A stretch of 54,613 nt of DNA from Egibacter sp. (GTDB lineage Bacteria; Actinomycetota; Nitriliruptoria; Euzebyales; Egibacteraceae): the NCBI GenBank assembly GCA_003553795.1, contig PWFH01000095.1, positions 1 to 54,613 on the forward strand. Direction: 5' to 3'. Below are positions 30,349 to 33,789 of this stretch, piece by piece. The notes under the pieces are model-generated. The model did not search any database. It saw only the letters and a program-made list of their open reading frames with translations, and was not told the origin of the DNA. How positions within the stretch are numbered: position 1 is the first letter of the stretch; each line of letters starts with the position of its first letter. Position numbers and translations under genes: made by a program.

Positions 30349-30999
30349 CTACTTCTTCGCCGGCTGGTAGTAGGGATTGCTCCCCGAGGCATGGTCGGTG
30401 ACGTCGACGACGCGCTCGATCTCCTCGACCGCCGAGATGATCGCGGTCTCGATGCCCTGCGAGAGGGTGACCTGGGCCATGCCGCAGCCCTGGCAGCCGC
30501 CGCCGAGGCGGAGGTAGGCGGTGCCCTCCTCGACGGCGACGAGGTCGGCCCGGCCGCCGTGCGAGGCGATCTGGGGGTTGATGTGCTGCTCGAGGATCTG
30601 GATGACCTGCTGGGCGACGTCGCCGGAGAGGTCGATGTCGCCGAAGTCGCCGGAGACCGGGGAGGCCGGCTCCGGTGGCGCGGGCCGGTTGGGGTTCTCG
30701 AGGACGATCCCGCCGGTCTCGAGGTCGCCCTGGCGGTCGAGCGTCGCGCCGCGCAGCATCGGCACGCTCGCGGCGGGCACGATGACCGCGAGGTCGTCGT
30801 GCCACTGCACGACGTCGTCGGCGGCGGCCTCGGCGAGCACCTCGAGCGACATCGCGACGTCGTACTTGCCCGGGCTCTCGCCGGTGACCTCCAGCTTGAG
30901 CGCGAGGCGCTCGGGCTCGTCGTCACGGGAGCGGATGAGCCGCACCTTCTCGCGCGCGCCTTCGGTGACGGTGATGACGGGGCTGGCCTGGTCGCTCAT
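30349..30999 (-). CDS. Nfu-type Fe-S carrier (degenerate A-type domain plus NifU C-terminal domain)
   Basis: The 216-residue protein resembles NfuA. The N-terminal half (residues 1 to about 95) looks like an A-type carrier fold but has no Cys at all, as in known NfuA. The C-terminal NifU domain has the cluster-binding CxxC (C169, C172 in LGGGCQGCGMAQ). It would hand [4Fe-4S] clusters to client enzymes. TACCCT (31007-31012) ends 7 nt before the ATG with no SD, so it is likely leaderless. It is divergent from the ATP-grasp/radical SAM pair with only 76 bp between starts; radical SAM enzymes are natural clients. Confidence 0.88.
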   Translation of the reverse strand: MSDQASPVITVTEGAREKVRLIRSRDDEPERLALKLEVTGESPGKYDVAMSLEVLAEAAADDVVQWHDDLAVIVPAASVPMLRGATLDRQGDLETGGIVLENPNRPAPPEPASPVSGDFGDIDLSGDVAQQVIQILEQHINPQIASHGGRADLVAVEEGTAYLRLGGGCQGCGMAQVTLSQGIETAIISAVEEIERVVDVTDHASGSNPYYQPAKK

Positions 31000-31006
31000 G
31001 GCCGCA

Positions 31007-31012
31007 AGGGTA
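31007..31012 (-). promoter_or_regulatory. -10 box of leaderless nfu promoter
   Basis: TACCCT on the minus strand, 7 nt before ATG 30999. It faces away from the ATP-grasp promoter at 31063. Confidence 0.55.
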
Positions 31013-31062
31013 GCCCCCGAACGACCGTGATGACACCCCGCTGTCGGCGGGGTCACCGCCGC

Positions 31063-31068
31063 TACGCT
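31063..31068 (+). promoter_or_regulatory. -10 box of leaderless ATP-grasp promoter
   Basis: TACGCT, then exactly 7 nt, then ATG 31076. No SD is present. No clear -35 is visible. Confidence 0.55.
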
Positions 31069-31075
31069 GTCGCGC

Positions 31076-32335
31076 ATGCCCCGCATCGCCCTCGTCGTGC
31101 CGACGACGACCTACCGCGCCGCAGCCTTCCTCGAGGCGGCCCGTCGCGCCGGCGTCGACGTCGTCATCGCCAGCGACGACGAGCCCCACCCCCTCGCCGT
31201 CGAGCAGGTGAGCCTCGACCTCGCCGACGTCGACGAGGCCGCCCGCGCGCTCGCCATGGCCGCCGGCGACGTCGACGCCGTCGTCGGCGTCGACGACCAC
31301 GGCGTCGAGATCGCCGCGCTCGCCGCCGCCCGGCTCGGGCTCGACCAGAGTCCGCCCGAGGCCGTGGCGCGCACGCGCGACAAGGCGGCGATGCGCCGGG
31401 CGCTCGAGGGGCGGGCCGGCGTGCGCCAGCCGCCCTTCGTGGTCGCCGGCCCCGACGACGACGTCGCCGCGCTCGCTGCCGAGGTCGGGCCGCCGGTCGT
31501 GGTCAAGCCCGTGTCACTGGCGGCCAGCCGCGGGGTCATCCGCGCCGACGACCCCGCCGCGGCGGCCGCCGCCGCGGCGCGCTGCCGGCGCATCCTCGCC
31601 GCCGCCGGCGAGGACCCCGACGGCCCGCTGCTGGTCGAGGGCTACCTGCCCGGCGTCGAGGTCGCCGTCGAGGGCCTGCTGACCGACGGCCGCCTCGAGG
31701 TTCTCGCGGTCTTCGACAAGCCCGACCCGCTCGAGGGCCCGTACTTCGAGGAGACCCTCTACGTCACCCCCTCGCGCCTGCCCGGGCCGACCCTCGCCGC
31801 GATCGCCGAGGCGACCGCGGCGGCCACGGCCGGGCTCGGCCTGCGGCAGGGGCCGGTGCACGCCGAGCTCCGCGTCGACCGCGGCAGCCCGGCGCTGCTC
31901 GAGGTCGCCGCCCGCACGATCGGCGGGCACTGCGGACGCTCACTGCGCTTCGGCCTCGGCATGTCCCTCGAGGAGGTCGTCCTGCGCAACGCCGCGCGCC
32001 TGCCGACCCACGCGCTGGCCCCCGCGGGCGGCGCGAGCGGGGCGCTCATGCTGCCGATCCCGCGCAGCGGGGTGCTGCGCGCCGTCGACGGCCTCACCGC
32101 CGCGCGCGCGGTCGAGGGCATCGACGGCGTCGAGATCAGCGTGCCGCTCGGCGGCGCCGTCGAGGCACTGCCGGAGGGCGGGCGCTACCTGGGCTTCGCC
32201 TTCGCCTCGGGCGCCCGGCCCGCCGACGTCGAGGCTGCGCTGCGCGCGGCGTGGGCCGCCCTCGAGACCACCATCGACCCCGACGGCGCGCCCTGCGCGC
32301 CACAGGAGGTGAGCGCCGGATGCGCGTCGCCCTGA
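31076..32335 (+). CDS. ATP-grasp ligase paired with a CCAEP-tail radical SAM protein
   Basis: The 419-residue protein has a pre-ATP-grasp Rossmann-like domain (MPRIALVVPTTTYRAAAFLE, residues 1 to about 95). The ATP-grasp fold follows (PPVVVKPVSLAASRGVIR; LLVEGYLPGVEVAVEGLL; metal-binding segment HAELRVDRGSPALLEVAARTIGG), then a C-terminal domain like those of dipeptide ligases of the LAL_C2 type. Such enzymes activate a carboxylate as an acyl-phosphate and join it to an amine or thiol. Its 3' end overlaps the radical SAM gene by 16 nt, so both are made together. The substrate is unknown. The tight pairing suggests the ligase prepares or modifies the radical SAM substrate. Confidence 0.85.
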   Translation: MPRIALVVPTTTYRAAAFLEAARRAGVDVVIASDDEPHPLAVEQVSLDLADVDEAARALAMAAGDVDAVVGVDDHGVEIAALAAARLGLDQSPPEAVARTRDKAAMRRALEGRAGVRQPPFVVAGPDDDVAALAAEVGPPVVVKPVSLAASRGVIRADDPAAAAAAAARCRRILAAAGEDPDGPLLVEGYLPGVEVAVEGLLTDGRLEVLAVFDKPDPLEGPYFEETLYVTPSRLPGPTLAAIAEATAAATAGLGLRQGPVHAELRVDRGSPALLEVAARTIGGHCGRSLRFGLGMSLEEVVLRNAARLPTHALAPAGGASGALMLPIPRSGVLRAVDGLTAARAVEGIDGVEISVPLGGAVEALPEGGRYLGFAFASGARPADVEAALRAAWAALETTIDPDGAPCAPQEVSAGCASP

Positions 32336-33789
32336 TCTCCACCTACGAGCTCGGCCACCAGCCGCTGCACGTCGCCTCGCCGGCGGCGCACCTGCGCGCC
32401 GCCGGCCACGACGTCGCCGCCCGCGACCTCGCCGTCGAGCCGTGGGACGACGGGCTCGTGGCGTGGGCCGACGCGCTGGCCTTCAGCGTGCCGATGCACA
32501 CCGCGATGCGTCTCGCGGTGGCCGGCGCCGAGCGCGCCCGCGAGCTGCGCGGCGACCTGCCGATCGCCCTCTACGGGCTCTACGCCCCGGTGAGCCGGGA
32601 CACGACGGTCGGGCGCATCGCCGACGTCGTCCTCGCCGGGGAGTACGAGCCGGCGCTGCTCGGCTGGGTCGAGACCCTCGCCGGTCGCGACGGGGCGGCC
32701 GCGGCCGACGCCGCCCGGCGCCACCGGCGCGACGGTGCGGTCGCCGGCGACATCGGCGGCGACCCCGTCCTGCAGCTCGGCCGCCAGCGCTTCCGGACCC
32801 CCGCGCGCGACCTCCTGCCCGGCCTCGAGCGCTACGCCAGCGCCCACATCGACGGGCGGGACCACGTCGCCGGCTACACCGAGGCGAGCCGCGGCTGCGC
32901 CCACGAGTGCCGCCACTGCCCGGTGCCCGCGGTCTACGGCGGGGCGACCCGGCTCGTCGACCGCGACGTCGTCCTCGCCGACGTCGACCAGCAGGTCGCC
33001 GCGGGCATGCGCCACCTCACCTTCGGCGACCCCGACTTCCTCAACGCCCCGAAGCACGCCCTCGCGGTGGCCCGTGCGGTGCACGAGCGCCACCCCGACC
33101 TCACCTACGACGTCACGGTGAAGGTCGAGCACATCCTCCGCGACGAGGCGATCTGGGAGGAGCTCGCCGCGACGGGCTGCCGCTTCGTGATCTCGGCGAT
33201 CGAGCTCCTCGACGACGCCGTGCTCGAGCGCCTCGACAAGGGCCACACCGCCGCGCAGGCCGCCGCGGCCGTCGGCGTCCTGCGGCGCGCCGGCATCGAG
33301 CCACGGCCGTCGTTCCTGCCGTTCACCCCGTGGAGCTCGGTCGGCACGATCCGCGAGGTCTTCGACTTCGTCGTCGACCAGGACCTCCTCGGCACCGTCG
33401 ACCCGGTGCAGCTGTCGATCCGGCTGCTCGTGCCGACCGGCTCGCTGCTCCTCGACCTCGACGATCTCGCGCCGCTGCTCGACGGCTACGACGACGAGGC
33501 GCTGACGTGGCGCTGGCACCCCGCCGACCCCGCCGTCGACGACCTCCAGCAGGCACTGGCCAAGATCGCCGAGGAGGCCGCCGACGCCGGCCTGCCCCGG
33601 CGCGCGACCTTCGTGCGGATGCGCGCCGAGGTGCTCGCCGCCGATGGCGTGGCCGACCCGGCCGTGGCCGCCGAGGAGGGCATCCCGGCCACACTCGAGG
33701 ACGGCCCGGGCCTGTCCGAGCCGTGGTTCTGCTGCGCCGAGCCCACCGAGGGGCAGTTCGGCGTCGTCACGACCTGCGAGGGCTCCTAG
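32320..33789 (+). CDS. CCAEP-tail B12-binding/radical SAM protein (cysteine form of the CUAEP selenoprotein family)
   Basis: The 489-residue enzyme starts at ATG 32320 with a near-perfect SD (AGGAGGT, 9-nt spacing) inside the ATP-grasp gene. Residues 1 to about 120 resemble a cobalamin-binding domain (LISTYELGHQPLHVASPAAHL), though the classic DxHxxG is not obvious. The radical SAM triad is C193/C197/C200 (RGCAHECRHC). The C-terminal tail reads WFCCAEPTE with C471-C472 (codons TGC TGC at 33730-33735). This matches the family named for a CUAEP or CCAEP tail, where U is selenocysteine. Here the Sec position is Cys. The tail Cys pair may be catalytic or redox-active. The reaction is unknown. Confidence 0.85.
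   Translation: MRVALISTYELGHQPLHVASPAAHLRAAGHDVAARDLAVEPWDDGLVAWADALAFSVPMHTAMRLAVAGAERARELRGDLPIALYGLYAPVSRDTTVGRIADVVLAGEYEPALLGWVETLAGRDGAAAADAARRHRRDGAVAGDIGGDPVLQLGRQRFRTPARDLLPGLERYASAHIDGRDHVAGYTEASRGCAHECRHCPVPAVYGGATRLVDRDVVLADVDQQVAAGMRHLTFGDPDFLNAPKHALAVARAVHERHPDLTYDVTVKVEHILRDEAIWEELAATGCRFVISAIELLDDAVLERLDKGHTAAQAAAAVGVLRRAGIEPRPSFLPFTPWSSVGTIREVFDFVVDQDLLGTVDPVQLSIRLLVPTGSLLLDLDDLAPLLDGYDDEALTWRWHPADPAVDDLQQALAKIAEEAADAGLPRRATFVRMRAEVLAADGVADPAVAAEEGIPATLEDGPGLSEPWFCCAEPTEGQFGVVTTCEGS

Follow-up and report, generated by a model that had tools for sequence, protein, structure and literature searches.

Results

The contig PWFH01000095.1 of the soda-lake bacterium Egibacter sp. 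(assembly GCA_003553795.1; the whole stretch of 54,613 nt is called the window in the following) carries a conserved gene module in which a radical SAM protein of the CUAEP family is associated with an ATP-grasp ligase of the L-amino-acid-ligase (LAL) type and an NfuA-type Fe-S carrier. The module is real and conserved, and its central family is named but functionally unpublished as far as the literature could be searched. The closest characterised relative of the radical SAM protein is ArsL, which was absent from an earlier sequence-only reading of this DNA and leads to a specific chemical hypothesis. We regard a three-gene biosynthetic module consisting of an ArsL-like enzyme, a LAL-type ligase and NfuA as the best explanation of the locus, at a probability of roughly 40%, and infer its chemistry from the kinship with ArsL. 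What is new is that the family is a sister of ArsL, that a third gene belongs to the unit, that the radical SAM gene depends on the ligase in one direction only, and that some hosts are selenium-free. The features of the locus are as follows.

30352..30999, minus strand: NfuA-type Fe-S carrier (nfu), degenerate A-type N-domain and NifU C-domain with CxxC
31000..31075, no strand: intergenic region of 76 bp between the divergent nfu and ligase genes, gene order kept across phyla
31076..32335, plus strand: ATP-grasp ligase of LAL type, 419 aa (PF13535, PF18603, match to 3vot)
32320..33789, plus strand: CCAEP-tail radical SAM protein, 489 aa (NF040546)
32896..32919, plus strand: CX3CX2C motif (C193, C197, C200) of the SAM-cleaving [4Fe-4S] cluster, invariant in 59 non-redundant members
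33730..33744, plus strand: C471-C472-A-E-P tail, C472 codon TGC, both positions invariant Cys/Sec

Gene layout

The ligase and radical SAM genes (ORFs 31076-32335 and 32320-33789) overlap by exactly 16 nt, as had been described, and an AGGAGG sequence is located at position 32304, just 5' of the ATG of the radical SAM gene. The divergent Fe-S carrier gene likewise lies at the distance given for it, with the nfu start codon at 30999 on the minus strand and the ligase start at 31076. The designation as a two-gene system has to be replaced, because the co-occurrence of nfu shows that the unit comprises at least three genes, in the order nfu <- -> ATP-grasp -> radical SAM. A RiPP precursor was considered and rejected, as the 16-nt overlap and the 76-bp divergent gap leave no room for it in the operon, and a recurrent small ORF was not seen. 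An MFS gene beside the window locus was also rejected as a conserved exporter, being common only to the window and its sister genome.

The radical SAM protein and its tail

In a profile search, the radical SAM protein reached 544.6 bits against NCBIfam NF040546 (rSAM_CUAEP; E 1.7e-163), which lies above the curated cut-off of 500, so the resemblance of the tail is not due to chance. The runner-up was ArsL (NF040542) with 286 bits, and all other families stayed below 52 bits. The cluster motif C193/C197/C200 (CX3CX2C) can be read from the translated ORF as claimed. The sequence WFCCAEPTE is present as well, but it does not form the C-terminal end for which it had been taken: it is followed by 12 further residues (GQFGVVTTCEGS), and the protein stops at residue 489 with the terminus CCAEPTEGQFGVVTTCEGS, which contains no RCCLKC.

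At least 540 relatives are encoded in the GTDB genomes that were scanned; the 80 best of them were read and span the Actinomycetota, Chloroflexota, Gemmatimonadota, Methylomirabilota, Acidobacteriota, Dormibacterota, and KSB1. The closest public relative among the GTDB matches is encoded by the Nitriliruptorales MAG isolate CSSed165cm_391 (L023; 93% identity). All of these best 80 of at least 540 relatives share the tail WFC-[Cys/UGA]-[A/S]EP, the second position being Cys in 50/80 and UGA in 30/80. Such a search had been recommended with the sequence-only reading, and its outcome, together with the membership in NF040546, indicates that the tail is homologous to that of the CUAEP family and that C471-C472 indeed correspond to the Cys-Sec positions. 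Only five Cys residues are invariant among the 59 non-redundant members of the family, namely those of the cluster motif and the two in the tail. No publication on the function of the CUAEP family was found in a search covering open-access papers, in line with the earlier reading, which named none, and the family is absent from the main text of a 2026 review on the prokaryotic selenoproteome. The CUAEP protein on a MAG contig filed under Bifidobacterium breve (L089, CAMDSG010000207.1) shares 97.6% identity with its counterpart from the actinobacterium IMCC26256; the contig is mislabelled or contaminated.

Structure prediction had been proposed for the pair, and separate AF2 models gave a best match for each of the two proteins, AprD4 for the radical SAM protein and 3vot for the ligase. 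The radical SAM model has a pLDDT of 92.9, with about 86-87 in the tail blocks, and matches AprD4 (6fd2) at a TM of 0.61. CUAEP shares a Rossmann-like N-domain and the radical SAM barrel with AprD4 and other B12-fold radical SAM enzymes, but differs from them in its low identity (20%), its tail and the lack of any sequence sign of cobalamin binding. The assignment as a B12-type enzyme could therefore be kept as a fold resemblance only: the Pfam B12-binding domain scores 28.8 bits, below the cut-off of 32.1, and the DxHxxG motif is missing from the window protein and matched in just 5/80 of the best 80 of at least 540 relatives. As some B12 radical SAM enzymes, such as TsrM, lack this motif, the window protein may still bind B12; dependence on B12 was rejected as unsupported.

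The ligase and the Fe-S carrier

The ligase contains the Pfam domains PF13535 (91.7 bits) and PF18603 (LAL_C2, 52.4 bits), both above cut-off, and aligns in phmmer with the structurally solved LAL BL00235 (3vot) at an E-value of 2e-28. Its AF2 model (pLDDT 87) has 3vot as the best Foldseek match, with a TM of 0.76-0.79. The enzyme thus falls into the LAL family by domains, sequence, and fold, which agrees with the acyl-phosphate type of ligase proposed before, and it is predicted to form amides. The substrates of LAL enzymes are free amino acids. The window ligase has the ATP-grasp and LAL_C2 domains in common with the known enzymes BL00235/3vot, RizA, and BacD/YwfE, but is only about 25% identical to them and, unlike these, represents an orthologous group of its own tied to nfu and CUAEP.

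The nfu product was recognised over its full length (1-190/190) by TIGR03341 (NfuA) at 103 bits, below the equivalog cut-off of 269, and by PF01106 at 72 bits; it is to be regarded as NfuA-like, but not as the proteobacterial equivalog. The C-terminal tail of these carriers (TDHASGxNPYYEPAKK) is nearly invariant. An NfuA-type carrier is known to restore the lipoyl synthase LipA in E. coli (PMC9585516), where a likewise bimodular NfuA with a CxxC motif serves a radical SAM enzyme. Unlike LipA, however, CUAEP has no room for an auxiliary cluster with three Cys ligands, since its five invariant Cys are too few for it beside the tail pair, and the most plausible task of the carrier is to keep the SAM cluster loaded. 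The neighbourhood of LipA and LipB genes in the loci of Chloroflexi was discarded as clade-restricted and redundant.

Co-inheritance of the three genes

Among 71 CUAEP loci with at least 1 kb of upstream sequence, taken from the best 80 of at least 540 relatives, the ligase gene is located directly upstream on the same strand in 45, and a divergent nfu gene follows next in all of the 40 adjacent-ligase loci with enough flank. The expectation that the ATP-grasp gene is kept beside CUAEP and nfu across genomes is thereby borne out; adjacency is missing in 16 genomes, 15 of which encode an orthologous ligase elsewhere (above 340 bits). Relocated or solitary copies of the ligase gene still have nfu beside them, as found in 11/11 opened copies and in a further 6/6.

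The co-occurrence was also counted in two evenly drawn samples, one of 198 genomes from the phylum of the window and one of 121 genomes of Chloroflexota. The first sample contains CUAEP in 15 genomes, the ligase in 20, and both in 14, which means that the ligase is present in 14/15 CUAEP genomes versus 6/183 others (p 5.5e-16, ignoring shared ancestry). Its NfuA-type carrier follows the ligase even more closely (20/20 ligase genomes versus 13/178 others, p 4e-19, again ignoring shared ancestry), and a divergent nfu gene adjoins the ligase gene in all 20. Eight of the 13 ligase-free genomes with such a carrier belong to one family and have lower scores. In the Chloroflexota, CUAEP was detected in 31 and the ligase in 38 genomes, the latter being present in 31/31 CUAEP genomes versus 7/90 others (p 1.9e-22, a value that likewise ignores shared ancestry). 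The pattern thus repeats in two phyla and persists where the genes lie dispersed. Accordingly, nfu is a conserved partner rather than a bystander; a housekeeping role beside the ligase was rejected on these counts, yet the carrier is not fully exclusive to ligase genomes.

Over both samples, 45/46 CUAEP genomes contain the ligase. Contig ends cut into the one exception (G100) and likewise into two ligase-only genomes (G211, G258). The dependence is one-way, as the ligase occurs without CUAEP, whereas CUAEP practically never occurs without the ligase, which suggests that the ligase either precedes the radical SAM enzyme or has additional partners. Four near-complete genomes (G123, G134, G267, G020) carry the ligase-nfu pair and no CUAEP, and a moaA-like gene adjoins the ligase gene in G267. 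As to further neighbours, a DUF169 gene (PF02596) is found near nfu, ligase or CUAEP in 22/80 loci (e.g., L091, 7382-8104), and loci of the Thermoleophilia type (L028, L033, L044, L057) harbor a SaoD/DsrE-family gene in antisense orientation just downstream of CUAEP. The L057 copy matches NF040913 (198 bits); SaoD refers by name to the Sec-assisted organometallic (SAO) system.

Relation to ArsL

A quick tree of 65 CUAEP and 6 ArsL proteins resolved each family as a monophyletic group with full support, and CUAEP is the sister family of ArsL, by far the nearest other family among those scored. The two can be aligned throughout up to the tail and have the CX3CX2C motif and a vicinal C-terminal Cys pair in common. 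Of the 80 columns conserved to at least 97% in CUAEP, 44 agree with ArsL, such as those of the cluster motif and E10, G12, Q14, P15, D237, D239, R368, and S375, while 36 differ, among them P58-M-H-T versus P-L-F-D, G86-L-Y versus G-Q-H, K268R, R329N, and P372Y. These differing blocks could shape the binding of SAM or of the substrate, and the cleavage mode and the acceptor may differ between the families. ArsL terminates in KRCCLKC, whereas the CCAEP/CUAEP tail follows after an extension of about 50 residues that is missing from ArsL; the Cys pairs may therefore be equivalent without strict positional homology. Other differences to ArsL are the nfu partner, the lack of arsM, arsR, and arsQ, and the frequent occurrence as a selenoprotein. 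The window genome was searched for an ArsL of its own, and none was found.

LAL-type ATP-grasp genes are also located beside arsL in ArsL-type clusters on plasmids of Priestia, Alicyclobacillus, Klebsiella, and Pantoea (L104, L105, L107, L108, L135), the Klebsiella plasmid being conjugative, and such clusters might yield peptides derived from arsinothricin-like amino acids. A shared ancestral pair was rejected, because in a control with other LAL ligases the ArsL-linked and the CUAEP-linked ligases are each nearer to other LALs, so that either the partners came together repeatedly or one ligase replaced another. The pairing in both radical families is thus no evidence for a shared operon ancestor; separate gains of a ligase would be expected if both families deal in amino-acid products.

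Exchange of Cys and Sec

Sec forms of CUAEP contain a hairpin about 15 nt past the UGA codon, with a mean z of -1.55 against codon shuffles, compared to 0.03 in the Cys forms. SelB was detected above cut-off in 20/25 Sec-form genomes reached through the loci and in 12/25 Cys-form genomes. Neither SelB nor SelD was found above cut-off in the window genome (96.5% complete) or in the complete genome of IMCC26256 (L079), which also carries the trio. The window protein lacks the marks of a bacterial selenoprotein, C472 being encoded by TGC in a genome with neither factor above cut-off, and the Cys form thus needs no selenium machinery, as had been anticipated. In the quick tree of CUAEP and ArsL proteins, the deepest members of the family are Sec forms (KSB1, Gemmatimonadota, Methylomirabilota, and T. 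roseum), and parsimony yields 11 Sec/Cys changes, at least three of which are forced by well-supported branches. Together with the hosts free of SelB and SelD, these exchanges indicate that the second tail position is a working residue which Cys can replace, and that selenium is no ingredient of the pathway. Six Nitriliruptorales relatives (G001, G002, G003, G013, G014, G019) have a SelD of their own that is read through an in-frame TGA; one of these (G003) has a Cys-form CUAEP despite retaining SelB and SelD.

Discussion

In the preferred reading, the ligase would convert the carboxylate of an amino acid to an acyl phosphate and then to an amide, and the radical SAM enzyme would tailor the product of the ligase. 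This order appears the more likely one, since the radical SAM gene practically never occurs without the ligase gene while the latter occurs alone. The C-terminal Cys-Cys (or Cys-Sec) pair would reach the active site, where it may offer a soft, thiophilic acceptor and/or take and return the electron that closes the radical cycle, consistent with the redox or transfer role assumed for the tail before, and the largely dedicated NfuA would reload the oxygen-labile cluster. The expected product is an unusual, small, peptide-like metabolite bearing an ACP group. A point against this explanation is that the ligase-first order would contradict the order copied from an ArsL-like pathway. We consider a more far-reaching version unlikely, in which the ArsL-type enzyme would bond the ACP carbon of SAM to a soft non-carbon atom (arsenic or another element) held by a Cys-Sec tail, with a peptide from the ligase as the site of attachment or insertion, giving a new class of organo-element metabolites with its own Fe-S carrier, and in which the pathway would be widespread, largely chromosomal, selenium-enhanced, and typical of mostly uncultured Actinomycetota and Chloroflexota.

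An ACP radical in ArsL is reportedly also the subject of a 2024 JACS paper cited by others. Exchange of Cys and Sec is typical of redox-active positions, a topic that also belongs to the arguments for canonical radical SAM chemistry: a 5'-deoxyadenosyl radical may attack the ligase product, with the tail acting as a disulfide or selenenylsulfide relay that supplies hydrogen or electrons at the end. The invariance of C471/C472 and the best fold match, AprD4 being a radical SAM diol dehydratase (TM 0.61), fit this mechanism, as does the interchange at the second tail position; a survey touching on such interchange is available (PMC13188914). We nevertheless regard it as somewhat improbable, because the sister enzyme ArsL, with which over half of the conserved columns are common, is held to use an ACP radical (PMC8552651). 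ArsL alone suffices for the synthesis of hydroxyarsinothricin (AST-OH) from arsenite in E. coli, for which ACP transfer to arsenite is the proposed route (PMC8552651). A true organoarsenical pathway would accordingly be one in which the tail pair holds arsenite and an amino acid of the hydroxyarsinothricin type, or its dipeptide formed by the ligase, is made as an antimetabolite. ArsL as the nearest characterised family (286 bits), the vicinal Cys pair in both families and the LAL-type ligases in ArsL clusters speak for it, but the window protein reaches only 286 of the 450 bits required for ArsL membership and lacks RCCLKC. Moreover, the 25 most-hit families among 112 neighbours from non-redundant loci include no ars gene family (arsM, arsR) and no transporter, the recurrent genes being those for aconitase, pyruvate dehydrogenase, lipoate, and the molybdenum cofactor; a conserved exporter is lacking, and the distribution is chromosomal and syntenic, unlike that of an antibiotic island. 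Arsenic is thus one candidate acceptor among several, and a dedicated arsenical pathway seems quite unlikely.

Modification of a protein appears highly improbable, although the ligase-nfu pair is tighter than the ligase-radical SAM pair and persists without CUAEP. NfuA would then be the substrate or carrier, and the ligase and/or an ACP transfer would modify its nearly invariant tail, by analogy with Dph2, which modifies a histidine. The NfuA-type proteins of the 13/178 ligase-free genomes and the use of free amino acids by LAL enzymes argue against this, and a cluster-loading carrier accounts more simply for the link to nfu. The chance of a selenium-handling pathway, with Sec mirroring a selenium substrate or product, is almost negligible: Sec is present in the deepest members, but this idea is largely refuted already by the two trio hosts with neither SelB nor SelD above cut-off (the window genome and IMCC26256), which indicate that selenophosphate is not needed.

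Non-canonical ACP-radical SAM chemistry is, to our knowledge, so far known for Dph2 and ArsL. If the preferred three-gene reading holds true, this chemistry would also cover the large family next to ArsL, which has a Cys/Sec pair in its tail and a defined set of genes, and an unseen metabolite would be present in many Actinomycetota and Chloroflexota from soil, lakes, and the sea. Because the radical SAM gene depends one-way on the ligase, the order of the steps can be tested, and simple starting points are available with the Cys form from a genome free of selenium machinery and with the complete genome of IMCC26256. A cultured organism with a protein of the family is Thermomicrobium roseum, whose annotated CUAEP gene (NC_011961.1; L103, 7935-9410) ends at an in-frame TGA after ...LTESWFC while the frame runs on with AEP; its CUAEP protein is very likely a selenoprotein cut off in the annotation.
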